NCBI GenBank assembly: GCA_035285325.1
Contig: JAYKJB010000001.1
Span: 1-64,000, forward strand
Source of the DNA: Candidatus Sericytochromatia bacterium
Lineage (GTDB): Bacteria; Cyanobacteriota; Sericytochromatia; S15B-MN24; JAQBPE01
Reading direction: 5' to 3'
Length of the DNA: 64,000 nucleotides
Part shown: in pieces, positions 11,627 through 24,980 of the stretch
How the letters are laid out: every line of letters begins with the position of its first letter
Position numbering within the stretch: the first letter of the stretch is position 1
The notes under the pieces: model-generated
The model's database searches: none
The model's input: only the letters and a program-made list of their open reading frames with translations
Told to the model about the DNA's origin: nothing
Translations under genes and position numbers: made by a program

Positions 11627-11660
11627 GATGCGGTGTCCTCTGAAGGGGGGAAGGGGACCA

Positions 11661-12737
11661 TCAGGCCAGGTCGAGCGCACAGCGGACGGCGAGGTCGATC
11701 TCCGGGACTTCACTCGGCCTCGCTTCATAGGCCTCGAAATATTGCGCGGCGGCCTCGCGCTCGCCGATGGCCAGGTAGGCGTAACCGATATTGGCTTTGA
11801 TGACGGCATTGGCCGGGGCCAGGCCCTCGGCCATCCGGAAGTGATCGATGGCATCATCATACAGCCCGAGCTGGTAGAAGACCGCTCCCAGTTCCAGATG
11901 CGCCTCGAGCCACTGGGGTGCCAGGCGGCAGGCCTCGGCCAGGTGAAGGCGCGCGGGGCCGAAGTCACGTCGGAGGGAAGCCAGCACCCCCAGGTGGTAG
12001 CGCACCTCGGCGTTGTTGGGGAAACGCTCCGCCAGTTCCGTCAGCAGGCGACTGGCTTCGCCATATTCGAGCAAGGCCACGTGGGCGCGGGCGGCCAGGA
12101 TCATGGCGGCCGGGTGTTGCGGGTCGATCGCCAACGCATCCAGCGCCAGCGACAGGGTGCGCCGGTCATCCTGGCGCTGACGGGCCAGGTCGGCCAGCGC
12201 GATCAGGGCTGGGACGTGGCGAGGATCGCGGTTGGTGACCTGCTGCCAGCAGGCCTCCGCCTCGCCGTGGTCCCCCACCTGCTTGTGCAAGTTGCCCAGC
12301 TGATACAGCACGTTCAGGTCGTCCGGCGTGAGCTGGTGCAGACGCTCCAGGGCGCTGACGGCCTCGCCGAAGCGATGCTGCTGCTGGAGCAGCCAGGCGA
12401 GGTTGGCCAGCGCCATGGCGTGACCGGGTTCCAGCGTCAGGACCTGACGATACTCCGCCGCCGCCTGGTCGAGCTGACCGATCGAGGCGTAGACGACGCC
12501 GAGGTTGAAGCGCGCCTTCGCGTTGAACGGGTGCTCGGCGAGCAAGGTCTGGTAATGGGCGATCGACGCCTCGTTTTCGCCGAGTTGGTAGCGCACCAGC
12601 GCCAGGTTACTGCGCGCCAGTTCCAAGCCCGGGGTCAGCGCCAAGGCGGCCTCATAGGCTTCGGCGGCTTCGCGCAGCTGCCCGGCGCGTTGAAAGCGTA
12701 CCCCTTGCTCGTGCAGGGCGATCGCATCGGTTTCCAT
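11661..12737 (-). CDS. Tetratricopeptide repeat (TPR) protein
   Basis: This is a 358-residue protein made almost entirely of TPR units of about 34 residues, for example LREAAEAYEAALALTPGLEL, ASIAHYQTLLAEHPFNAKA and LDQAAAEYRQVLTLEPGHAM. About nine or ten repeats can be counted. TPRs form protein-binding superhelices. There is no signal peptide, so it is probably cytoplasmic. The start METDAIALHEQG is preferred because a TATAAT hexamer ends six bases before the ATG, which would make a leaderless transcript, and because upstream in-frame sequence does not look like TPR. It is the first gene of the leftward glycan operon and may scaffold or regulate the polymer machinery; that part is inference. 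Confidence 0.85.
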   Translation of the reverse strand: METDAIALHEQGVRFQRAGQLREAAEAYEAALALTPGLELARSNLALVRYQLGENEASIAHYQTLLAEHPFNAKARFNLGVVYASIGQLDQAAAEYRQVLTLEPGHAMALANLAWLLQQQHRFGEAVSALERLHQLTPDDLNVLYQLGNLHKQVGDHGEAEACWQQVTNRDPRHVPALIALADLARQRQDDRRTLSLALDALAIDPQHPAAMILAARAHVALLEYGEASRLLTELAERFPNNAEVRYHLGVLASLRRDFGPARLHLAEACRLAPQWLEAHLELGAVFYQLGLYDDAIDHFRMAEGLAPANAVIKANIGYAYLAIGEREAAAQYFEAYEARPSEVPEIDLAVRCALDLA

Positions 12738-12743
12738 GGCCTC

Positions 12744-12803
12744 ATTATAGCCCTCCGTCCTGAATCGAGCACCGCGATCAGGCGGGCATTCCCTGCGTAT
12801 AAT
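12744..12803. promoter_or_regulatory. Bidirectional promoter region with two outward TATAAT boxes
   Basis: A TATAAT on the minus strand (12749-12744) ends six bases before the ATG of the TPR gene. A TATAAT on the plus strand (12798-12803) ends seven bases before the ATG at 12811. They face outward and are separated by 48 bases. With normal spacing, transcription would start at or next to each ATG. I found no good -35 hexamer for either one. Confidence 0.55.
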
Positions 12804-12810
12804 GGCGGTT

Positions 12811-13743
12811 ATGGAAGGGGCGGGCTGGCTGTTCTGGGGGTGTCGTGCCGCCATTCATCTGGCGGAGGCGTTGTCGCGTCGCCAGGCTTTGCGTCTGGCT
12901 GAATGGACCGCTGCGCTCGCCTGGTGGGTTTATCGCCTCACGCCCTGGCGTCGACTCGTACAGGGCCACCTCGAAACGGTCTGGGGACCCACGCGCGGGC
13001 GTGCGGCGTGTCGGGCGATCGCCCGTGCCCACATTGTGGAACTGGCGCGCAACGTGGCGGAGTTGCTTCGCCTGCGACGCTTCCCCGCTGAGCCCGAGGT
13101 CTGGCTGGCGGGCGTGGACGGCTGGGAGCATGTGGTACAGGCCCAGCAGGCCGGGCGGCCCGTCCTGATCGTGACGGCGCATTACGGTCATTGGGAATTG
13201 CTGGCGGCGGCGCTCGCGCACCGCGGCCTGCGCCTGAATGTGCTGGTGCAGCGCCCCAGTCAGCCAGCCTTCGACTGGCTCTTTCGGCACCTGAGAGACG
13301 CGGTGGGCGTGCGTACCTGGGAAAATTCGAGCCTGCTCTCGCTGCGTCCGCTGTTGCGTGCGCTTCGTCGAGGCGAGGCGCTCGGGTTGCTGGCGGACCA
13401 GCACGGCGAATCGCAAGGGGCGACGGTCGAGTTGCTGGGCCGTGCCGTTGCGGCACCGCTGGGGCCCGTGTTCCTGGCCCAGCACAGTGGTGCCGCGCTC
13501 TTGCCCGCCCGCATGGTGCGCGAAGCCGATTCGCGCCATCGTCTGCGGATCGAACCGCCGGTGTGTTTGCGGGAGGCGCCCCGCGACACCATGCAGGCCA
13601 TCTACGATCGCTATGCCAGCTGGATCGTGGAACACCCCGACCACTGGCTATGGGTACACAATCGCTGGGCACGGGAGGTGGCGCCGCTCCCCAACCAACA
13701 GATGGCACGACCCGCGTCTGTTCTCGCGAGCGCCTCTGAATGA
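12811..13743 (+). CDS. Lysophospholipid/lipid A acyltransferase, LpxL/HtrB family
   Basis: This is a 310-residue protein with an N-terminal hydrophobic region and the family signature HX4E: His124 and Glu129 in TAHYGHWELLAA. It also has LGLLADQHGESQGATVELLG and WVHNRWAREV near the end, both typical of LpxL/HtrB enzymes that add a secondary acyl chain to lipid A precursors on the inner membrane. This supports an outer membrane with lipid A or a related glycolipid. The start at 12811 is favoured by a TATAAT seven bases upstream; an ATG at 12802 overlaps that box. The stop overlaps the next ATG as ATGA, beginning a six-gene coupled operon. Confidence 0.88.
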   Translation: MEGAGWLFWGCRAAIHLAEALSRRQALRLAEWTAALAWWVYRLTPWRRLVQGHLETVWGPTRGRAACRAIARAHIVELARNVAELLRLRRFPAEPEVWLAGVDGWEHVVQAQQAGRPVLIVTAHYGHWELLAAALAHRGLRLNVLVQRPSQPAFDWLFRHLRDAVGVRTWENSSLLSLRPLLRALRRGEALGLLADQHGESQGATVELLGRAVAAPLGPVFLAQHSGAALLPARMVREADSRHRLRIEPPVCLREAPRDTMQAIYDRYASWIVEHPDHWLWVHNRWAREVAPLPNQQMARPASVLASASE

Positions 13744-15014
13744 GACCGCCTCGCTCGTCGTTGCAGCTTCTCCTGATGAGCTTCTGGCTGATGCCCTTCG
13801 GCGTCATCGCGAGCGCGGGCTGTCTGTTGCTGGCCCTCTGGCGGGAGGCGGCCGCCCGTCGACACCAAGCGCCCCCGGTCGCGAGGTCGCGGTCCTGGCA
13901 CGAGTGCTGCCGCAGGCTCCCCCCGGCTGAGCGCCTCTGGCTGCTCACGCTGGCAGGGGCCTCGCTGGCGACCCTGGCTTCGCCCCATCCGCTCCAGAGT
14001 CTACCGCACTGGGCGCTCGCCGTCGGATGCGCCATCACCTTCGCCCTGGCACGGGGGATTCTGCAACGGCCGGCCCACCTCCAACTCCTGCTGCGGGCCC
14101 TGTTTCAGGTCGCCATTGGGATGTCACTGTTCGGTCTGACGGTCTATGCCTTCGACCTGCACGCGCGTTGGCAGGTTGCGCCTGGGGTTGAATGGGCCAT
14201 CGGGACGCCGGACCGGCGGGTGAATGCGGTCATGTACCACCCGAACCAGCTGGCGGGACTGCTGGTCTTGGCGCTCGGAGCGGGCCTGGGCTTGTTTCAC
14301 GGTGCTCCCCCCGGCCGTTCCAGGGTGATCGTCCTGGCCGGTTTGCTCTGTCTGGCCCTCACGCTGCTTCTGACGGCTTCCCGAGCGGGATGGCTGGGGG
14401 CCGCCGTGACCCTGGCGGCTTTTGGTTTCTCGGTCGACCGTCGCTGGTGGCTGGCCGGCGGCCTGGCCGCTGCCACCGCCGCGGCCTGCTTTCCCCAGCT
14501 CATCTGGGCGCGCTTGTCGGCGCTCGCCTGGAATGACCCCGCCTTCGACCATTTTCGCCTGATGGGCTGGGAGGCTGCGCTGAAGATGATTCAGGCTCGC
14601 CCCTGGACGGGCTGGGGCCCCGGCACGTGGGGTGAGGTCTACCCCACCTTTCGGCTGCCGGCGGAGACGGTTCATCTGCCCCACGCCCACAATGCCTTCC
14701 TGCACGTGTCGGCGGAGTTCGGTGTGCCCACCCTGGTTTTCCTGTCTGCCCTGGTCCTCCTGACCCTTCGCCAGGCCCTGCTCGAGACGCGGGACACGCC
14801 GCTGCAGGGGATCGTGGTAGCCCTGACGTGCACCACGTTGGGCTATGCGGTCACCAACTGCTTCGACGCGGCCCTGCTGGAAGGACGCAATGCCATCGCG
14901 TTCTTTCTCTTGTTGGGGGGCGCGGCGGCGGCCCGCCGCATGCCGCTCTTGTCCGGGGGCCGGGAGGGGGCGCTTGCCGCGGGCGAGGGGCCTTCCGAGG
15001 GGGCCTTCGCGTGA
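13740..15014 (+). CDS. O-antigen ligase-like membrane protein (Wzy_C domain)
   Basis: This is a 424-residue protein with about ten to twelve membrane segments. The large periplasmic loop and following helix carry Wzy_C hallmarks: TASRAGWLGAAV, RPWTGWGPGTWGEVYP and the His-rich PHAHNAFLHVSAEFGVP. Family members (WaaL, PglL and relatives) transfer a polyprenyl-linked glycan to lipid A core or to protein, or polymerise repeats; sequence alone does not separate these. It sits directly after the acyltransferase with ATGA overlap and before a GT2 enzyme with GTGA overlap, so a role in finishing an envelope glycolipid is likely. Confidence 0.87.
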   Translation: MRPPRSSLQLLLMSFWLMPFGVIASAGCLLLALWREAAARRHQAPPVARSRSWHECCRRLPPAERLWLLTLAGASLATLASPHPLQSLPHWALAVGCAITFALARGILQRPAHLQLLLRALFQVAIGMSLFGLTVYAFDLHARWQVAPGVEWAIGTPDRRVNAVMYHPNQLAGLLVLALGAGLGLFHGAPPGRSRVIVLAGLLCLALTLLLTASRAGWLGAAVTLAAFGFSVDRRWWLAGGLAAATAAACFPQLIWARLSALAWNDPAFDHFRLMGWEAALKMIQARPWTGWGPGTWGEVYPTFRLPAETVHLPHAHNAFLHVSAEFGVPTLVFLSALVLLTLRQALLETRDTPLQGIVVALTCTTLGYAVTNCFDAALLEGRNAIAFFLLLGGAAAARRMPLLSGGREGALAAGEGPSEGAFA

Positions 15015-15949
15015 GTTCGCCGACCCTATCCGTCGTGATCGCAACCTACAACCGTGCCCCGATCCTGGAGAAGTGCCTGCGGGCCCTGCTGGCGCAAACG
15101 CTGTCGCCGGAACAGGTTGAGATCGTGGTGATCGACGATGGCTCGCAGGATGACACCCGCGACCGCATGGCGGCCTTGCAGGCGCAAGCCCCCCAGCTCC
15201 GCTATCACTGGCAGCCCAATGCGGGGCGCAGTCACGCGCGCAACGTCGGCATTGCGATGGCCCGAGGGGAACTGGTGGTGTTCATCGACAGTGATGTCGT
15301 GGTGGTTCCGGACTTTCTGGCGGTCCATCGCCAGTTACACGAGCGGTATGCGCCGCGACGGATCTTCGTCCAGGGGCTTTCGGTCAACACGGATGACTTC
15401 CATGAGCCCTTGGCCACTCCGGTCCGCTGGCATGACGTCTCAGCCGCTTTCTTCGCCACCAACAACGTCTCGATTCCGCGGCGCCTGCTGGAGGAAGTTG
15501 GTGGTTTCGACGAAGGCTTCGTCGCGTATGGGTACGAAGATCTCGAACTGGGGGTCCGGCTCAAGCGGGCCGGGGTGGGAATCGTGAGAAGTCGGAAAGC
15601 CCGTGGATTTCACTGGCATCCCCGTTTCACGCTGGCCGACCTCCCCGGGATGCGGGCCATCGAGGTGCAGCGAGGCCGTATGGGGGCTTATTTCTTTCGT
15701 CAGCATCCCACCTGGGCCGTGCGGATGATCGTCCAGCACACGCCCCTGCACCGCCTGCTCGATTGGCTGGTGCGTGGGGGGGGGCGCCTGGATGAAACTC
15801 GTGCCGAGCCTTGGTTGCGCTGGCTGCTGGCGAGGGGCCACGCCTTCTGGGCGCAGCAACTGGCGATCGTCTTGCTGAACCGCCACTACCTCGCGACCCT
15901 GGCCGCCGAGCTGGCCTTGCCGCCGGCCGAGCGACCCCAGGGGGGCTGA
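15011..15949 (+). CDS. Glycosyltransferase family 2 with C-terminal galactosyltransferase-like part
   Basis: This is a 312-residue protein. It starts VSSPTLSVVIATYNRAPIL, then has VVIDDGSQDDT, NAGRSHARNVG and the metal-binding VFIDSDVVVV. A later NVSIPRRLLEEVGGFDEGF with YEDLELGVRLKRAG is typical of the GT-A C-terminal glyco_transf_7 module. No membrane helix is obvious, so it acts at the cytoplasmic face on a lipid- or nucleotide-linked acceptor. The GTG at 15011 overlaps the upstream stop as GTGA, and its own stop TGA shares a base with the next ATG. A run of nine G at 15776-15784 lies within the frame and could slip. The donor sugar is unknown. Confidence 0.88.
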   Translation: MSSPTLSVVIATYNRAPILEKCLRALLAQTLSPEQVEIVVIDDGSQDDTRDRMAALQAQAPQLRYHWQPNAGRSHARNVGIAMARGELVVFIDSDVVVVPDFLAVHRQLHERYAPRRIFVQGLSVNTDDFHEPLATPVRWHDVSAAFFATNNVSIPRRLLEEVGGFDEGFVAYGYEDLELGVRLKRAGVGIVRSRKARGFHWHPRFTLADLPGMRAIEVQRGRMGAYFFRQHPTWAVRMIVQHTPLHRLLDWLVRGGGRLDETRAEPWLRWLLARGHAFWAQQLAIVLLNRHYLATLAAELALPPAERPQGG

Positions 15950-16569
15950 TGAACGCGCTGAAGGTGTCGATTGCCGCTGCTCTGATGCTGAGTGCGCCGC
16001 CGGTCCTGGCCGCGGAGCTGCGGGGATGGGGTGCCTCGGGAGTCCGACAGACTGTGTCTCAGATTTTGGTGGCCAGCCTGTCGGGACAGCCGCCTCTGGG
16101 GGCGGACCCGGAACGGCTGCCGCAGGCCTTGCGCGCACCCGCTGGCGTGTTCATCACCGTCAGCCGGGCAGGGGTCGTGCGCGGGTGCTGGGGACGACTG
16201 GCGCCCACCCGAGCGAGCGTCGCCGAGGAACTGGTGTCGGTGGCTGCCCGCTTGCGCACGGCCGACTGGCGCAATCGACCCATCGATGATTCCGAATGGC
16301 CCCAACTGGTGGCGCATGTGTCGGTGGTGGGAGCGCTCGTGCCGATCGCGCGCGCCGCGGCCCTCGATCCTCGACGTCACGGATTGTGGCTCACGGCCGG
16401 CGGGCGCGGCGGGGTGGTCCTGCCGGGGGAAGCGGCCTCCTCGGCCTGGCAGGAATTGCTCTGCCGTCGCAAGGCTGGTCTGTCCTCCCGCCATCCGGCG
16501 CGCCTCTATCGATTCGAGACGGAGCTGTTGGGGCCGATTTCGCTGGCGGCGGTGAGGAGAGTGCCATGA
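15949..16569 (+). CDS. Exported AMMECR1-domain protein
   Basis: This is a 206-residue protein with a clear signal peptide (MNALKVSIAAALMLSAPPVLA, cut before AELRG). The rest matches the AMMECR1 fold: GVFITVSRAGVVRGCWGRL corresponds to the conserved LRGCIG signature, followed by VAHVSVVGALVPI and a late DPRRHGLWLTAGGRGGVVLPG. AMMECR1 proteins are of uncertain biochemical function and are normally described as intracellular, so export is unusual. The last codons overlap the start of the A2M gene as ATGA, and the first base overlaps the GT2 stop. Coupling to glycan and A2M genes suggests an envelope role; that is inference. Confidence 0.8.
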   Translation: MNALKVSIAAALMLSAPPVLAAELRGWGASGVRQTVSQILVASLSGQPPLGADPERLPQALRAPAGVFITVSRAGVVRGCWGRLAPTRASVAEELVSVAARLRTADWRNRPIDDSEWPQLVAHVSVVGALVPIARAAALDPRRHGLWLTAGGRGGVVLPGEAASSAWQELLCRRKAGLSSRHPARLYRFETELLGPISLAAVRRVP

Positions 16570-19500
16570 GGGAACCTCGCACGTCGCAGAACTGGCAGGC
16601 CTTTTGCTGGACGGCCCTGACCTGGCTTTTGCTGTGCGGCCTCGGGCTCGCGGCGATCGCCCTGGAGCGTCCCACCGGCTCGCTGCGCGGCGTGGTGCTG
16701 GATGAACGCGGCCAGCCGCTGGCGCGGGCCCGCGTGGTGGCTGTTGGCGCCGTCACGCGCACCCGTCGGAGCGATGCGCACGGTCGCTACGAGTTCCTGC
16801 ACCTGCCGACGGGGGAATTCTACGTCTCGGCCAAGGCGGCGGGTCACGAGCCCCAGTATCAGGAACAGACGATGCTGGTGCAGGAGGGAAAAACCCTCGA
16901 CCACGTCGATTTCAAGCTCTCTCGCACCGAACCGTCCCTCTCCGTCTCGAACGTGCAGCGCGTGTTTTTGCCGGGCAAACCCGTGCGCGTGATGGCCCGC
17001 GGCAATCAGTTCAGGCGGCTTGAGGTGGAATTGCTGCGCCTCGACCTGGCGCGTCTGGCCGCCACGCGCCCGGGGCTATCCTCCCTGCGCAGCGCCTTGG
17101 ACGTCGATCGCCTGAAGCGTCTCGGGGTGTTGCAAACTCAGCGGACCTGGAGCTTGCCGGTCGCCCGGGAGCATTTCGAGGATGAGGACTGGTTTCACCA
17201 GCCTGTTCAGCTGCCGGTCGAGCAACCCGGGGCCTATGTGGTGCTGGTGGGCGGCGTGCCCGTGCCGGATCCCGAGGGCAAGCCGCGAGCGGCCATTCAG
17301 GACTCCTGGTGGTTCACTGTCAGCCGGACGGCGCTGGTCACCAAGCGCAGCGCTGACGCCTTGCTGGCCTGGTGTGTCGACCTGGAGAGCAAACAGCCGC
17401 TGGCGGGGGCCGGGGTGCAACTGTTCACTGCCCAGGGGCGGGCAAATGCCGGCGTGACCAACGGCCAGGGCCTGGTGTCGCTGCGGATTCCCGCGGGGGC
17501 AGAGCGCGTCACCTTGCTGGCCGACCACGCCGGGGCGCCGGCGCTGGTCGAAGCCGGATTCTGGGGCGACCAGCGGACGCTCGAAGCCTTCGCGTTTACC
17601 GACCGGCCCGTCTATCGGCGGGGGCAGACCGTCTTTCTGAAGGGCGTGCTGCGCAAACGCATCGCTCAGGGGTTCGAACCGCTGCGGGGCGGCACGGTGG
17701 AGGTGAACTGGCAGGATGCGCGCGGGGAGGACCTTGGTCAGACGCGCGCCGTGCTGTCCGACGCCTCTGGCTTCGACACGGCCTTCAGCCTGCCGGAGGA
17801 GGCGGCCCTGGGCGAGTACCGGGCCCGCGTTCGGGTGGGCGAGTCCGAGGAGTGGGTCTCCTTCGTGGTGGCGGATTATCGCAAACCGGAGTTCAAACTG
17901 GAGATCTTGCCGCGTCAGGTCCGCTGGATCGGGGGGCAGACCGCCGAGGTGGATCTTCGCACGACCTACTACTTCGGGGCACCGGTCGCGGGAGCCAGGC
18001 TCCAGACGACCGTTTATTCCGCGCCGGCCTATCCCAGCTACGACGAGGAGACCGGATTTTTTGCCCGCTTCCTGCAGGATGAGGCGGACCCGGTCTGGGG
18101 GCTCGGGGATGTGGTTCTGCAGCAAGACTTGCAGGCCGATGCCGGCGGCCAGGCGGCACTCTCGATTCCTCTGCCCCAAGCGGGAGAGGGGGCTGCGGGC
18201 GATCGCCTCTTCACCGTCGTCACCGAAGCCCTGGACGGCAGCGGACGCCCGGTCAAGTCGCAGGCCAGTTTCCGGGTGGTGCAATCGGACGTGCGGCTGC
18301 GGGTGCATGCGGAGCAGGGCCTCTATGTTGGTGGGCAAAAGGTGCGCATCCGGGTGGAAACGACCTCGCATGAGGGCCGTCCGCTCACGCGCCCGGTCAC
18401 GACGCGCTTGTATCGCCTGGAGAGCGAGGAGCGGGTGAGTCCTCAGGGGGACTCCTACTTCGAAACCCGCCGCGTCTCCGTCCAGCAGGGACAGGTCACG
18501 ACCGATGCGCGCGGGCTGGCCTGGCTGGAACTGGCTTCACCCGGCATGGGCAGCTATGAACTGGAGGCTGAGGTGAGCGACGCGCAAGGACGCCACAGTC
18601 ATGATGTGGCCGGGGTGTGGGTCGCCGCCGCTGCTGAAACGCCCAGCAGCTATCGCTATGGCGGTTTGCAGATTCGTCTGGACAAGGCGGTCTACCGGCC
18701 TGGCGACACGGCCCGGGGCATGGTGATCTGTCCCGAGCCCGGCGCCACCGTTCTGCTGACCCTGGAAGGTCGGACGGTGATGGCGCCCCGGTTGATCAAG
18801 TTGAATGGCACGATCGGCTTGTTCGAGCTGCCCGTGGAGAGCGCTCATAAACCCAACGTCCACCTGGCGGCGACGGTGGTCAACGGGCTGGAGTTCTTGA
18901 CCGCGGAACGCTCGTTGAACGTGCTGCCTGAGGACAAGTTCCTGGCGGTGACGGTCTCCGCGGACCCCGCCAAGGCCCGACCCGGTGACACCGTGACCTA
19001 CACGGTCGAGACCCGTGACTGGAAAGGCCGTCCGGTGGAGGCGGAGGTGGCGCTCGGCGTGGTGGACGAGGCCATCTATGCGATCGAGCCCGACCGGACC
19101 CCCGATATTCGCAGTTTCTTTCACGGTCCACGCTGGAACCAGGTGGAGACGGCCTATTCGTTTGCCGAGGATTACAGCGGCGGCCTGGATAAGTTCGCCC
19201 CTGATCCGCGCGTGAGGGCGCAGTTCAAGGACACGGCCGCCTGGTATCCCAGCCTGCGCACCGGGCGGTCGGGCCGGGCGGCGGTACGGGTGCGCTTGCC
19301 GGATAACCTGACGACCTGGGTCGCCACCGCCCGTGCGGCGACGCTCGACACGCGCGTGGGCACGGCGCGCCATCGCTTGCTGGCCACCCAGGACCTGCTG
19401 GTGCGCCTGGAGGGGCCGCGCTTCGCCGTCGTGGGAGACGAGGTGGTGCTGGCGGCGATCGCCCACAACCAGACCGGCCGCGAGCAGCGGATTGCGCTCC

Positions 19501-21365
19501 GGATCGAGGTGGACGGCGTGGCGCCACCCTCGCCGGGGGAGGAAACCCTCGCCCTGCCTCCGGGGGGCACGGGGCGTGTGACGCGGCGCATCGAGGTGCC
19601 GGCCGTCTCGGCCCTTACCTGTCGTGCGCTGGCGAGGCCGCTCGTGGGCACCGTTCAGGGGGATGCCATGGCCCAGGACATCCCGGTGCGCCCGGATGGC
19701 ATCGAGGATTTCCTGCCCGTGGCGCTCGAGGCGACCACGGCCACGCCCGCGACGGTGGCGCTCAGCCTGCCCTCCGATGCGTTGCCCGGGGCTCAGCTGG
19801 AGGCGCAGCTGCAAGCCTCCCCGCTCTCAGCCCTGCGCACGGGGAGCGAATACCTGTGGCGCTACCCCTATGCTTGCAGTGAACAGACCAGCGCCCGCCT
19901 GGTCCCTGACCTGGTCGTCGGGCCGGCACTGGCGAAAACGGGCCTGCCGCCTGCAACTTGGCGTTCCTGGCAACCGGAAGGCGACGCGCAAACGACCAAA
20001 ATGCTGGCGGCCTTGCTGAGCCTTCAGCAGCCCGATGGGGGGTGGGGGTGGTGGCGCCAGGACATCAGCCGCCCGGAGCTGACTTCGCACGTCATGCTGA
20101 TCCTGGCCGAGGCTCGGCGAATGGGGCTCCCGCTCCCCCCCGCTCAGATTCGACGCGCGCTGGAACGGATGCGGGCCGACCTGGCCCAAACGGGACGTGA
20201 TGCCACCGAGCGCGATCGCGTTCACCACGGGGAGGGGCCCGAACTGCGTGCCCAGATCGTTTTGGCCCTGACGCGCTGGGGAGAGCCGCAACCAGAGGCC
20301 CAACGCCGCTTGCGCACGGAGCTGACCCAGTTGGGGCCACGCGCGCAGGCGCAGCTGGTGTTGTCTCTGCTGGATACAGGCGGGCCAGCGGCTGCCCGGG
20401 AGGTGCTGACGGAGTTGACCCGGACGGTGGACGAGACCACCACCTACGCCCACTGGAATCCCCGGGAGGAGGCGTCCGCGTGGCGTGCCTCTGCCCCTGA
20501 GGCTACCGCCTGGGGGTTGCGCGCCGTGCTGGCCGCTGACCCTGATGCGCCACTGGTAGGCAAGCTGGCGCGCTGGCTGCTCTCGCGCAATGCCGAGGGA
20601 CACTGGGGAGATACCCGGGCCTCGACGGCCGCGTTGTGGGCGCTGGCCGAATACTGGCCGATCGCCCGGGCGGATGCGGGCGACGGTGGGGTGGGCACCC
20701 TCGCGTTGGACGGCCACGCCGTTCACACCTGGGAGGTCACGGATCCCCAGCGCCCCGTGGAGACGCCCCGCATTCGCCAGCCTCTGACGCCCGGGGAACA
20801 TACGCTGGAATGGGTCGTCGCGGGGCCGCGGCCACTGACGTGGGCCGTCAGTGGCGGCATTCGCCTTCAGAGACCCGCTCAGGCCTGGCGGGCCGCCTCG
20901 CGGCGTGGCCTGTCGGTGGAGCGTCGCTATCTGCGTCTCCCGGCGGATGTCGCGGCGCGGGTGCAGGGGAAGGGCTGGGCTGCTTGCTATGATGACGCCC
21001 TGGCCGATCGCCTGCCGCTCTGGCGGGGCGATGTCCGTGCGGGAGAGCGTATTCTGGTGCGACTCACGCTGCGGGCGGAAAAGCCCGTCCGCTGGATGTG
21101 CTTGCGCGACCCGATTCCAGCCGGCTGTGAAATTCTCGAGGACCTGCCCACCGACTGGCGCTACTGGTGGACCCATCAGGAGGCGCGCGATGACGCGGCG
21201 GTATTTTTCTTCTCCGAACTGCCGGCGGGGGAGCGTTCCGTGTATTATGTCACACGTCCCACCACCCCCGGTCGTTTCCGCGCGCTTCCCGCCGCCTTGT
21301 GGGCCATGTATGACCAGGAGCTTCGGGCCTGGAGTGATGCCCAGACGGCCTCGATTGTGGAGTGA
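16566..21365 (+). CDS. Alpha-2-macroglobulin family protein with thioester motif
   Basis: This is a 1599-residue periplasmic protein. An N-terminal hydrophobic segment (about residues 12-33) probably anchors it; I see no convincing lipobox. A carboxypeptidase regulatory-like domain (GSLRGVVLDERGQPLARARV) follows at about 33-115, then a chain of macroglobulin domains, with VALGVVDEAIYAIEPD near 840 and an A2M-core block RVRLPDNLTTWVATARAATL near 905-925. The thioester motif CSEQ is intact at Cys1104-Gln1107 inside YPYACSEQTSARL, so covalent trapping of proteases is possible. The start at 16566 overlaps the upstream stop as ATGA; a longer in-frame extension would run through the AMMECR1 gene. 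Bacterial A2M often pairs with a penicillin-binding protein (PbpC); here VanW follows instead. Confidence 0.93.
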   Translation: MREPRTSQNWQAFCWTALTWLLLCGLGLAAIALERPTGSLRGVVLDERGQPLARARVVAVGAVTRTRRSDAHGRYEFLHLPTGEFYVSAKAAGHEPQYQEQTMLVQEGKTLDHVDFKLSRTEPSLSVSNVQRVFLPGKPVRVMARGNQFRRLEVELLRLDLARLAATRPGLSSLRSALDVDRLKRLGVLQTQRTWSLPVAREHFEDEDWFHQPVQLPVEQPGAYVVLVGGVPVPDPEGKPRAAIQDSWWFTVSRTALVTKRSADALLAWCVDLESKQPLAGAGVQLFTAQGRANAGVTNGQGLVSLRIPAGAERVTLLADHAGAPALVEAGFWGDQRTLEAFAFTDRPVYRRGQTVFLKGVLRKRIAQGFEPLRGGTVEVNWQDARGEDLGQTRAVLSDASGFDTAFSLPEEAALGEYRARVRVGESEEWVSFVVADYRKPEFKLEILPRQVRWIGGQTAEVDLRTTYYFGAPVAGARLQTTVYSAPAYPSYDEETGFFARFLQDEADPVWGLGDVVLQQDLQADAGGQAALSIPLPQAGEGAAGDRLFTVVTEALDGSGRPVKSQASFRVVQSDVRLRVHAEQGLYVGGQKVRIRVETTSHEGRPLTRPVTTRLYRLESEERVSPQGDSYFETRRVSVQQGQVTTDARGLAWLELASPGMGSYELEAEVSDAQGRHSHDVAGVWVAAAAETPSSYRYGGLQIRLDKAVYRPGDTARGMVICPEPGATVLLTLEGRTVMAPRLIKLNGTIGLFELPVESAHKPNVHLAATVVNGLEFLTAERSLNVLPEDKFLAVTVSADPAKARPGDTVTYTVETRDWKGRPVEAEVALGVVDEAIYAIEPDRTPDIRSFFHGPRWNQVETAYSFAEDYSGGLDKFAPDPRVRAQFKDTAAWYPSLRTGRSGRAAVRVRLPDNLTTWVATARAATLDTRVGTARHRLLATQDLLVRLEGPRFAVVGDEVVLAAIAHNQTGREQRIALRIEVDGVAPPSPGEETLALPPGGTGRVTRRIEVPAVSALTCRALARPLVGTVQGDAMAQDIPVRPDGIEDFLPVALEATTATPATVALSLPSDALPGAQLEAQLQASPLSALRTGSEYLWRYPYACSEQTSARLVPDLVVGPALAKTGLPPATWRSWQPEGDAQTTKMLAALLSLQQPDGGWGWWRQDISRPELTSHVMLILAEARRMGLPLPPAQIRRALERMRADLAQTGRDATERDRVHHGEGPELRAQIVLALTRWGEPQPEAQRRLRTELTQLGPRAQAQLVLSLLDTGGPAAAREVLTELTRTVDETTTYAHWNPREEASAWRASAPEATAWGLRAVLAADPDAPLVGKLARWLLSRNAEGHWGDTRASTAALWALAEYWPIARADAGDGGVGTLALDGHAVHTWEVTDPQRPVETPRIRQPLTPGEHTLEWVVAGPRPLTWAVSGGIRLQRPAQAWRAASRRGLSVERRYLRLPADVAARVQGKGWAACYDDALADRLPLWRGDVRAGERILVRLTLRAEKPVRWMCLRDPIPAGCEILEDLPTDWRYWWTHQEARDDAAVFFFSELPAGERSVYYVTRPTTPGRFRALPAALWAMYDQELRAWSDAQTASIVE

Positions 21366-21368
21366 CCC

Positions 21369-22052
21369 GTGCGGGCCTTGCTGATCACGCGCGAATATCG
21401 ACTGCTCTGGCCAACCGTGATGCTGGTCTTGCTGACGGCCTCGCTCTGGGTTCACCATCGGCGCCCGTTCAAGGAACTGGTGGCACATCACGCGACCTCG
21501 CTCTCGCATCTTTCCGCTGCCCAGCGACGGAACGTGGAAGTGGCGGCCGCCCAGCTGGATGGCTGGGTGGTGGGGCCAGGTGAGCGGATGTCCTTCAACG
21601 AGGTGGTCGGTCCTCGTACCCGCGAGCGGGGCTTCGTGGAGGCGAATGCCTTTCTCGAACGTCAGCGCACGCGCAGCATCGGTGGGGGCGTTTGCCTGCT
21701 GGCCTCAGGTGTGTATGCCGCGGTTCAGCAGACCCCCTGGCCGATTCTGAGACGGGTGGCCCATCCCGTTCGGGTGCAGGCGGTGCCGCCTGGCCGGGAT
21801 GCCACGGTCTGGTACGGTCGGGCCGATCTGCTGGTGGAAAACAGCTTCAAGGAGCCGGTCAAGTTCCGGGTGGTGATCGCGCCGACCTCTTGCCGGGTGG
21901 AGCTCTGGGGCAAGGCCCATCCCGGACAGCAGGTCGGCCTGCGCTTCGCTTACGAGCCGGGGCGGCGTCGCGGGGAACAGCGCGTCAAGGTCTACCGGCA
22001 GTGGGGCTCGCAGATCAGCCTGCTCTCCAACGACCTCTATCGGGTGCGTTGA
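21369..22052 (+). CDS. VanW family protein
   Basis: This is a 227-residue protein with one N-terminal membrane segment (about residues 10-28), then the VanW domain: VGPGERMSFNEVVGPRT, FVEANAFLERQ and the Gly/Cys-rich IGGGVCLLASGVYAAV. These are the conserved elements of the family first noted in some vancomycin resistance clusters; its biochemical role is not established. It begins with GTG three bases after the A2M stop and is the last gene of the six-gene operon. The next gene is on the other strand. Localisation would be the periplasmic face, next to A2M. Confidence 0.88.
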   Translation: MRALLITREYRLLWPTVMLVLLTASLWVHHRRPFKELVAHHATSLSHLSAAQRRNVEVAAAQLDGWVVGPGERMSFNEVVGPRTRERGFVEANAFLERQRTRSIGGGVCLLASGVYAAVQQTPWPILRRVAHPVRVQAVPPGRDATVWYGRADLLVENSFKEPVKFRVVIAPTSCRVELWGKAHPGQQVGLRFAYEPGRRRGEQRVKVYRQWGSQISLLSNDLYRVR

Positions 22053-22061
22053 CGCCGGGGG

Positions 22062-24980
22062 TCAGATCCAGACGCGCCCGAACCAGACGTGGCCGTGATA
22101 GAAGTCCCAGGAGACCGGCAGGGCCGACAGCAGCGGGTAGTAGTAGATGAACCAGCTGATGGCCACCCCCGCGAAGACGGTCACCGCGGCCCTGCGCCAC
22201 GCCCGCTTGGGCGGAGAAGCCGGAGCGGCCTCCCCACCACTGGCGCTGCCCTCTCCATCCACGGGGCGTGCCTGCGCTTCCGCGTCCGTTTGGCCGTGCC
22301 AGAGCAGATAGCCCACGTAGGCCAGCGCCAGACAGGCAAACGGAATCGTTTCGAACATGTAGTGCATGTAGAGCAGCGGGCGGGGTTGAACGCCCCACAT
22401 GACCCAGAGCCCGATGCCCAGCAGGGCGATCGCCCCCAAGGCGCGCACCCGGTCACGCCAGGCCAGGAAGGCGGCGTAACCCAGGGCCGGGATGCTGCTC
22501 CACCAGATGAAGGCATTGCCGATGGCCCAGACCGCCCCCAGACCGTTGAACCCGGTGTTTTTGAGGTCCTGGAAGTAATACCAGGTGGGGCGCAGCATCA
22601 GGGGCCAACTCCACCAGGGGGAGTTGTAGGGATGGGTCGCGTTGAGCTTGGCGTGGTAGTCCCACATTTCTTTTTGCCAGGCGACCACGCGCCCCCAGCC
22701 GTGGTTGGCATGGTCCCAGGACAGCAGTTTGAGCTGCCAGTCGGAGCCGGGCGCCTGCAAAATGTAAGGGATGTAAGAGAGCGCGTAGATGACCAGGGGC
22801 ACCAGCCCCATGCTCACCACCACCAAGCCCACATACCGCAGCATGCCCAGCTTGCTCGCCCGCAGAAAGTCGCGCAGGCTCCCCACGAAGTCGGTGGACG
22901 GTTCGCTGACCCAGACCAGCCGGCGAACCCGCCAGGCGTGGTCGATCAGCAGCAGGCCAGTCAAGCCCCAGGCATAGAGGCTGGACCAGCGCGTGGCCAG
23001 GGCACAGCCCAGGCCGAAGCCGGTCAGCAGGAGCCAACGACCGTCATCCCGCTTGAGAAACTGCCAGGTACCGATGGTGCCGATCATGATGAACGCCACC
23101 TCGTAGATGTTGGTCATGGCCACGCGGCTCTGCACGAAGAAAACCCCGTCCAGGGCCAGCAAGACGGTGGCTGCGGCCGCGATGGTCCGGTTCGCGAACA
23201 TGGCGCGCGCGAGGGCATAGGTCGCCATCAGGGCCACGCCACCAAACAGGACGCTGGTGAAACGCCAGGCAAAGGCCTGCTGCTCCGTGAACGTCTTGGC
23301 CTCCAGCTCCCAGCCGCCTCCCCAGGCCAGCACCCCCAGGGCGGCGATCAATTTGGCCAGGGGCGGATGCGTCCATTCGTAGGGTGAGACCCCCTTGATG
23401 TATTCCATGGCGGTCCGCGCGTGATACACCTCGTCGAAAATTTGCTCGTGGGGCGTACCCAGACGCCAGAACGCCAGACTGCAGAAGGCCACGGCGATGC
23501 CCAGGGGCAGCAGGAGGTCGGCCCAGGTCAGACCATGCTGCCGCACCTCTGCTCGCAGCGTCCGGAGGGCCTTGAAGAGCGGATGTTCCGCGATCTCCTG
23601 CACGATTTCCGATTTGACGAACAGGTAAGCGAGCAGTTCCCCGAACAGCCACACGTTGAACAGCGAGATGATCACCATGCCGGACAGTTTCAGATTGCCC
23701 AGCATCGGACCATTGTTCATGATCGCTTTGAGGCCTTCGACCCAGGAACTCTGATCGTTGTAAAAGAAGAAGATGTAAGAGATCGAGAGCATCGAGGTCA
23801 GCGAGAACAGCCAGTAAATCCAGCTCAGTCGCCGATTGAACGCCTGGGCCAGCGCCAGAAAGGCGATCGCCGGGAAGATATAGCGCTCGTGCATGCGGGT
23901 CGCCAGCATGTAGTAGCCCGTCAGGGCCACACTGGCACTCAGCACAAAGGGGAAGGCGATGGCGTGCTGCCGGTTTCGCCACAGATACCAGGCCACCAGG
24001 GCCAGGGTGAGGCTCACCAGGATCAATCCCCAGGTGCTGTGCGGCAGCATCAAGATCAGGCGATCGTCACCCTTCCAGGCCTCGTTGGGCGGTGGCAGCA
24101 TCCAGAGATTGAACGCATTCACCGAACTGTAGGGGTAGTTGTCCCCGGTCTGCTTCATCAGGTTCGCGAACCAGAGGAACGGCGCGATGAACAGGGCGTG
24201 CAGGAAGCCCGTCACGCCGTGCGACAGATCCCATACCTTGGTCCAGTTGGCGGGCAGCAGCACCAACCAGGCGGTGGTGAGGCCCGCGGCGATCGCCAGC
24301 AACCACCGTTGCCAGCTGTGCCGATGCCACATCGCGAACACGACCACGGGGATCAAAAAGATGCCCTGAGGCTTGATGAAGACCGACGCACTGGCGGCGA
24401 CGGCGGCCAGGGTGAGTCGGTCCGTCAGCACTGCCAGCGTGGTGAGCAGCATGGTGCACGTCACGACCGAGTCGACCTGGCCCCAGATGGCAGACACGAA
24501 CAACACCACCGGATTGAAGAGATAGAACGCCGCCGTCCGGAAGGCCGAGCGGATCGCCACCCGACCCTTCAAGATGGAGAAGATCAGGTAGCCGTTCAGG
24601 ACGTCCGCCAGGCAGGCGGGGACCTTGACCCACTGAACGGTCATCATCGGGTCGACCGAGAACAGCTTGCCGACCGCCGCCCAGGCCCAGGACCACCCCC
24701 ACAGGAGGTACAGGAACAGGGGCGGGTAGTCACTCCAGGTGCTGTTGTAGAACTGGTGGGGGCCCACCTTGAACAGCGTGTCTCCCCAACTGCGGAAGGT
24801 GTTCACGTCCAGCGTGAACTGGTAGGGAAAGCGAATCAGGAACAGTCTCAGCAGCAGCGCTGCGATGAGCACGTACCAGAAAAGCCTGGTGTAATCTCTC
24901 CCACTGGATTCAGAGCCTGCCACGGAAGCGGTGACAGGCTCCTGCGCTGCGGCATCGGGAGGCAAGGGCTCAGAAGTCAT
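22062..24980 (-). CDS. Double GT-C glycosyltransferase: N-terminal mannosyltransferase-like half fused to a PMT-like half
   Basis: This is a 972-residue membrane protein with some twenty hydrophobic segments. The N-terminal half (about 28-470) starts a GT-C fold with RLFLIRFPYQFTLDVNTFRS and WSDYPPLFLYLLWGW, as in polyprenol-phosphate-mannose transferases. The C-terminal half (about 490-972) resembles protein O-mannosyltransferases (GT39): AFWRLGTPHEQIFDEVYHAR with the catalytic-type DE pair, EWTHPPLAKLIAALGV and a late PRPLLYMHYMFETIPF. Each half looks complete. Such enzymes use lipid-linked sugars on the periplasmic side. It follows secF by 20 bases in the same direction, so export and glycosylation may be co-expressed. 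No good ribosome binding site is visible. Confidence 0.85.
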   Translation of the reverse strand: MTSEPLPPDAAAQEPVTASVAGSESSGRDYTRLFWYVLIAALLLRLFLIRFPYQFTLDVNTFRSWGDTLFKVGPHQFYNSTWSDYPPLFLYLLWGWSWAWAAVGKLFSVDPMMTVQWVKVPACLADVLNGYLIFSILKGRVAIRSAFRTAAFYLFNPVVLFVSAIWGQVDSVVTCTMLLTTLAVLTDRLTLAAVAASASVFIKPQGIFLIPVVVFAMWHRHSWQRWLLAIAAGLTTAWLVLLPANWTKVWDLSHGVTGFLHALFIAPFLWFANLMKQTGDNYPYSSVNAFNLWMLPPPNEAWKGDDRLILMLPHSTWGLILVSLTLALVAWYLWRNRQHAIAFPFVLSASVALTGYYMLATRMHERYIFPAIAFLALAQAFNRRLSWIYWLFSLTSMLSISYIFFFYNDQSSWVEGLKAIMNNGPMLGNLKLSGMVIISLFNVWLFGELLAYLFVKSEIVQEIAEHPLFKALRTLRAEVRQHGLTWADLLLPLGIAVAFCSLAFWRLGTPHEQIFDEVYHARTAMEYIKGVSPYEWTHPPLAKLIAALGVLAWGGGWELEAKTFTEQQAFAWRFTSVLFGGVALMATYALARAMFANRTIAAAATVLLALDGVFFVQSRVAMTNIYEVAFIMIGTIGTWQFLKRDDGRWLLLTGFGLGCALATRWSSLYAWGLTGLLLIDHAWRVRRLVWVSEPSTDFVGSLRDFLRASKLGMLRYVGLVVVSMGLVPLVIYALSYIPYILQAPGSDWQLKLLSWDHANHGWGRVVAWQKEMWDYHAKLNATHPYNSPWWSWPLMLRPTWYYFQDLKNTGFNGLGAVWAIGNAFIWWSSIPALGYAAFLAWRDRVRALGAIALLGIGLWVMWGVQPRPLLYMHYMFETIPFACLALAYVGYLLWHGQTDAEAQARPVDGEGSASGGEAAPASPPKRAWRRAAVTVFAGVAISWFIYYYPLLSALPVSWDFYHGHVWFGRVWI

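Follow-up and report, generated by a model that had tools for sequence, protein, structure and literature searches.

To our knowledge no activity has been assigned to the AMMECR1 fold or family, which is widespread, conserved and linked to human disease, and its members are normally intracellular. The locus considered here raises the question of what such a protein might do outside the cytoplasm. It lies in a 64,000-nucleotide stretch of DNA, which we call the window, from an uncultured Sericytochromatia bacterium whose 3.8 Mb genome (G000) is a metagenome-assembled genome (MAG), the kind of data on which this analysis rests. A reading made from the sequence alone had proposed that an AMMECR1-domain protein starting with a signal peptide, an alpha-2-macroglobulin (A2M) of 1599 residues with an intact thioester, and a VanW protein are encoded by overlapping or nearly touching genes at 15949-22052. 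Our analysis confirms the coordinates, domains and junctions of this trio, and places the CSEQ thioester motif at residue 1104 of the A2M. The features of the locus are as follows.

12802 to 15949, plus strand: acyltransferase, O-antigen-ligase-like (Wzy_C) and GT2 genes, leading into the AMMECR1 gene (Pfam).
15949 to 16569, plus strand: AMMECR1-family protein, predicted to be exported, 206 aa (Pfam PF01871, 84.7 bits; AF2 model and Foldseek).
15949 to 16014, plus strand: predicted signal peptide of AMMECR1, about residues 1-22 (sequence, and N-terminal hydropathy across the family).
16180 to 16194, plus strand: RGCWG motif, AMMECR1 R78 to G82 (alignments); R78, C80 and G82 are also invariant in the sampled cytosolic AMMECR1s.
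16420 to 16434, plus strand: LPGEA motif, AMMECR1 residues 158-162, without variation across the exported family; only its LP persists in cytosolic copies.
16566 to 21365, plus strand: thioester A2M, 1599 aa, with an N-terminal signal or anchor and a CarboxypepD_reg domain (Pfam).
19875 to 19886, plus strand: CSEQ thioester motif, A2M residues 1104-1107 (sequence); CxEQ is present in 14 of 14 homologues checked.
21369 to 22052, plus strand: VanW-domain protein, 227 aa, with an N-terminal membrane anchor (PF04294, 118.7 bits).
21681 to 21695, plus strand: GGGVC motif of VanW, containing C109 (alignment); C109, H132 and D144 are invariant in six VanWs.

In the window sequence, the GT2 stop and the AMMECR1 start overlap as TGATG, the AMMECR1 and A2M genes share 4 nt (ATGA), and 3 nt separate A2M from VanW. 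The genome has a single AMMECR1 gene, a single VanW gene and one A2M bait domain. Directly upstream of the acyltransferase gene is a TPR gene on the minus strand (11661-12854), and the acyltransferase at 12802 is therefore taken as the first gene of the operon. Antisense to the TPR gene is a plus-strand frame of 424 aa (11628-12902), which was for that reason rejected as a gene. On the other side, a protein O-mannosyltransferase (PMT) gene (22062-24980, minus strand) converges with the VanW gene; G001 likewise has a PMT gene downstream of VanW, at 61% identity.

Is the first protein of the trio really an AMMECR1, and is it exported? Its PF01871 score stands against a cut-off of 25, and its AF2 model (pLDDT 87) matches only AMMECR1 structures at Foldseek E <= 0.001, namely 1zq7, 1vaj and 1wsc, with a probability of 1.00 and TM values of 0.5-0.64. 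The N-terminus, MNALKVSIAAALMLSAPPVLA^AE, was judged from the sequence to be a signal peptide. Signal peptides were called by eye from sequence and hydropathy throughout, and that of one member (L035, from G007) is weak. A hydrophobic N-terminal segment is nevertheless present in 21 of 21 members of this family and in 0 of 5 cytosolic AMMECR1s from the same class, the 12-aa hydropathy of the N-terminal segment being 1.8-3.0 in the former and at most 1.45 in the latter. The exported proteins are monophyletic, set apart by a branch supported at 100/100, and their own profile scores them at 190-246 bits and the same-class cytosolic copies at 102-119, with none between. At the sequence level, the export proposed in the sequence-only reading is supported. 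Eight residues (F68, R78, C80, G82, L158, P159, K175 and G177) are invariant in both the exported and the cytosolic branches, and the functional site has therefore likely been retained in the exported branch; among the sequences compared, LPGEA is restricted to that branch. We considered a disulfide between the cysteines of RGCWG and CRRKAG and rejected it, as the second cysteine is absent from several members.

The two other proteins are also clear members of their families. MG2, A2M_BRD (the bait region), A2M, TED, bMG5 and bMG10 exceed their Pfam cut-offs in the large protein and bMG3 falls just below; with its CxEQ thioester and its bait, TED and MG10 domains it fits a bacterial type I A2M. 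The VanW protein is a PF04294 member by its score and, in an alignment of six sequences, carries the Cys/His/Asp pattern of C109, H132 and D144. A fold search with its model gave no significant match in the PDB, and no VanW relative was found among solved structures. The PADLOC models of anti-phage defence gave 0 matches for the six proteins of the wider module described below.

The sequence-only reading had tied the functional coupling of the trio to recurrence of the neighbourhood elsewhere, and the neighbourhood does recur, which supports the coupling. Among 59 relatives searched, seven carry a divergent AMMECR1 and A2M adjoins it in all seven. When 84,980 species genomes were scanned with a single LLPGEA pattern, 17 loci were returned; because one motif pattern was used, exported AMMECR1s lacking LLPGEA would have been missed. 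These loci come from Sericytochromatia, Obscuribacterales, a Synechococcus MAG and MAGs labelled Armatimonadetes, Proteobacteria or simply bacterium. RpoB of the 'Proteobacteria' MAG is 89% identical to that of a Melainabacteria genome. RpoB of the 'Armatimonadetes' MAG is 53-57% identical to those of all Cyanobacteriota genomes aligned with it, and this MAG therefore probably falls outside that phylum. The RpoB survey also revealed that the three Obscuribacterales-type genomes searched (G060, G061 and G063; L064-L081) have two RpoB genes each, one scoring about 435 bits and a divergent one about 330 bits.

Overall, in 18 of 21 loci, which belong to Sericytochromatia, Obscuribacterales and one apparently non-cyanobacterial MAG, the gene immediately 3' of the exported AMMECR1 is that for A2M. 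A2M is in turn followed by VanW at every one of the 16 loci that allow a check (13 on the same contig, 3 through a second contig of the same genome). VanW is found in exactly 8 of 18 Sericytochromatia genomes, those with exported AMMECR1, in single copy and always after A2M (Fisher p 2.3e-5, uncorrected for relatedness; counts across relatives are not independent, owing to shared descent). A2M bait domains occur in all eight of these genomes and in 3 of the 10 others. As a negative control, A2Ms lacking an adjacent exported AMMECR1 have unrelated neighbours: GH31 and gyrB in G013, the sole one of the three latter genomes with neighbours identified on both sides, and T2SS/T4P and NFACT in G187. 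Gene order is kept across classes at protein identities of 25-45%.

The further suggestion that the trio belongs with the acyltransferase, O-antigen ligase and GT2 genes was not borne out. In a tblastn search of the relatives this neighbourhood recurs only in G001, one other genome of the same family, and the glycan genes are therefore not part of the conserved module.

Neighbour clustering with Pfam and NCBIfam instead identified three additional conserved partners in most relatives: a short PBP2-like transpeptidase domain, a SpoIID/LytB protein and a polytopic membrane protein. The original outline of the module thus holds for the trio and had missed these cell-wall partners. In 16 of 21 loci SpoIID is either next to AMMECR1 or divergent from it on the 5' side, and the PBP usually accompanies it. 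G002, G003, G004, G006 and G010 share one order, membrane protein, PBP, SpoIID, AMMECR1, A2M; three of them have VanW on the same contig and the other two have it on a second one. The arrangement in Obscuribacterales has PBP and SpoIID divergent from AMMECR1-A2M-VanW, while the membrane protein gene, on the opposite flank, is convergent with this trio. Within the window's family the module is split in two. No PBP or SpoIID gene lies beside the trio in the window, and the membrane protein, PBP and SpoIID genes of this genome are grouped on another contig (C51); a gene for a PBP2-like (not PBP1C) domain is close by in most relatives. The membrane protein falls into no known family: it has no Pfam match, and its assignment to the SEDS glycosyltransferases (PF01098) was rejected at an hhalign probability of 6.6%. 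In one Obscuribacterales-like MAG a SUFU (suppressor of fused) domain protein is encoded directly after VanW (L046:7609-8703), and a related gene is found at the L051 locus.

Which of these proteins is the working partner of AMMECR1? The coding regions of SpoIID and AMMECR1 overlap in L031, L035 and L036, and at L059 PBP-SpoIID-AMMECR1 is retained with A2M on another contig. Because of these tight junctions and the L059 arrangement, SpoIID/PBP is more likely than A2M to be that partner. In the Tanganyikabacteria MAG G004, SpoIID and AMMECR1 share a single open frame of 445 aa (L037:8849-10186); its value as proof of contact is weakened by an ATG at the join, after which comes a plausible signal peptide, and the 'fusion' may therefore be two proteins. 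Exported AMMECR1s are also found beside PALP/chorismate-synthase genes, with A2M far off, in the Thermostichus-like genomes (G187, L048). The G187 copy (L115:8911-9717) stands alone between a PLP enzyme and chorismate synthase in the closed genome, of 3,046,682 bases, of a cyanobacterium that may be in culture.

We compared the module with known systems. In the yfhM-pbpC pair of E. coli and Salmonella, as here, a thioester A2M adjoins a penicillin-binding transpeptidase, and type I A2Ms beside PBP1C have been proposed to trap proteases while the wall is repaired at a breach (PMC5764988). The PBP here, however, is short and PBP2-like rather than PBP1C, in the window genome it is on another contig, and the module adds SpoIID, AMMECR1, VanW and the polytopic membrane protein. 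The yfa operon of E. coli and the mag operon of P. aeruginosa, which encode type II A2Ms, are likewise multi-gene envelope operons built around an A2M, and MagD shields P. aeruginosa from some peptidoglycan-targeting T6SS effectors (PMC12663445). Within yfa, the gene for an exported protein of about 206 aa, YfaT, overlaps the A2M start, and YfaQ, encoded beside the A2M, has a SpoIID-like domain; both features are paralleled here. The yfa and mag A2Ms lack the thioester, whereas the window A2M has it and so is not of type II. YfaT belongs to DUF1175, with weak NlpC/P60 similarity, and was rejected as a relative of either AMMECR1 or VanW (hhalign probability 0.1% for both); its position upstream of A2M is analogous to that of AMMECR1, not homologous. 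MagB, at 589 residues, was rejected as a YfaT counterpart, and in the loci examined the module had no neighbouring counterpart of DUF2138, DUF2300 or DUF2135.

Two further comparisons concern single families. The AmmeMemoRadiSam system (AMMECR1, Memo and a radical SAM protein) shares the AMMECR1 fold and the eight invariant residues, but the window protein is predicted to be exported and scores 64.4 bits against NCBIfam TIGR04335, below the cut-off of 99; Memo (PF01875) has no match in the window genome. The VanW known as an accessory of glycopeptide resistance shares the PF04294 domain, but the window VanW scores 39 bits with the resistance model, whose cut-off is 365, and here VanW has an A2M neighbour in every testable case.

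Taken together, the conserved neighbourhood and the export of AMMECR1 suggest an undescribed module for protection or repair of the cell envelope, best read as analogous to the E. coli A2M-PBP1C pair and the Yfa/Mag operons with different partners. We think it somewhat probable that AMMECR1-A2M-VanW is the core of a periplasmic module combining peptidoglycan maintenance or repair with a protease trap, in which AMMECR1 works with SpoIID/PBP. Where the wall or envelope is breached, A2M would use its bait region and thioester for the covalent trapping of proteases, whether incoming or stray; SpoIID/LytB and the transpeptidase would meanwhile trim and re-crosslink peptidoglycan. The exported AMMECR1, beside SpoIID, might act on a peptidoglycan-derived substrate or ligand through R78, C80 and K175, and VanW, with its Cys-His-Asp pattern, could be a second enzyme directed at the wall or at A2M. 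Joining the trap to local peptidoglycan trimming and cross-linking in this way rests on analogy and on the conserved neighbourhood. Counting against this reading are the Thermostichus-like genomes with their distant A2M, the trio of the window with neither PBP nor SpoIID at its side, the doubtful G004 fusion and the lack of structural matches to the VanW model. As for the earlier idea of a defence of the envelope against proteases, it fits the intact thioester and may hold.

Other readings have to be weighed. AMMECR1 (and VanW) could be dedicated partners of A2M that form a complex with it and stabilise, tether or regulate its thioester, with the wall enzymes as looser companions. There is precedent in MagA, MagB and MagF, which bind and stabilise MagD (PMC5764988), and such a role would agree with the start-stop overlap of AMMECR1 and A2M in the window, L036 and L037 and with the persistence of the trio without wall genes alongside in the window's family. 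However, exported AMMECR1s away from A2M (L059, G187 and L048) and the unrelatedness of AMMECR1 and YfaT lead us to regard this reading as rather unlikely. A module for building or remodelling the envelope during growth or differentiation rather than for defence, in which A2M only guards the site from the cell's own proteases, would suit the families of the PBP2-like transpeptidase and SpoIID/LytB, which are growth or remodelling enzymes, and the placement of the trio after glycan genes in the window's lineage. We consider it improbable: retention of the thioester in all A2Ms checked points to covalent trapping of targets, and a presence in 8 of 18 class genomes is patchy for a core growth function. 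That the genes are chance neighbours, or the AMMECR1 a cytosolic protein with a misread N-terminus, can be dismissed almost entirely, for although signal peptides were read from sequence and one is weak, hydrophobic N-termini separate the two groups (21/21 versus 0/5), and chance is refuted by a gene order kept across classes at such low protein identity.

The most novel proposal can be made only tentatively, and we judge it less probable than not: that peptidoglycan itself, or a product bound to A2M, is the direct target of the exported AMMECR1 clade, and that the thioester-A2M wall-repair module in which this clade works, alongside SpoIID, a PBP2-like transpeptidase and VanW, is of a new type. 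A search of the open PMC literature found no report linking AMMECR1 with export or peptidoglycan in this manner, VanW with bacterial A2M, or SpoIID with A2M. If direct action of this kind is true, it would be the first extracytoplasmic role for the AMMECR1 fold. An exported, monophyletic AMMECR1 branch with fixed cell-wall partners gives the family its first tie to a process that can be tested, namely the turnover of peptidoglycan next to a protease trap. With this module, the idea of teamwork between bacterial A2Ms and wall enzymes reaches deep-branching cyanobacterial relatives, and VanW domains gain a functional context outside glycopeptide resistance.
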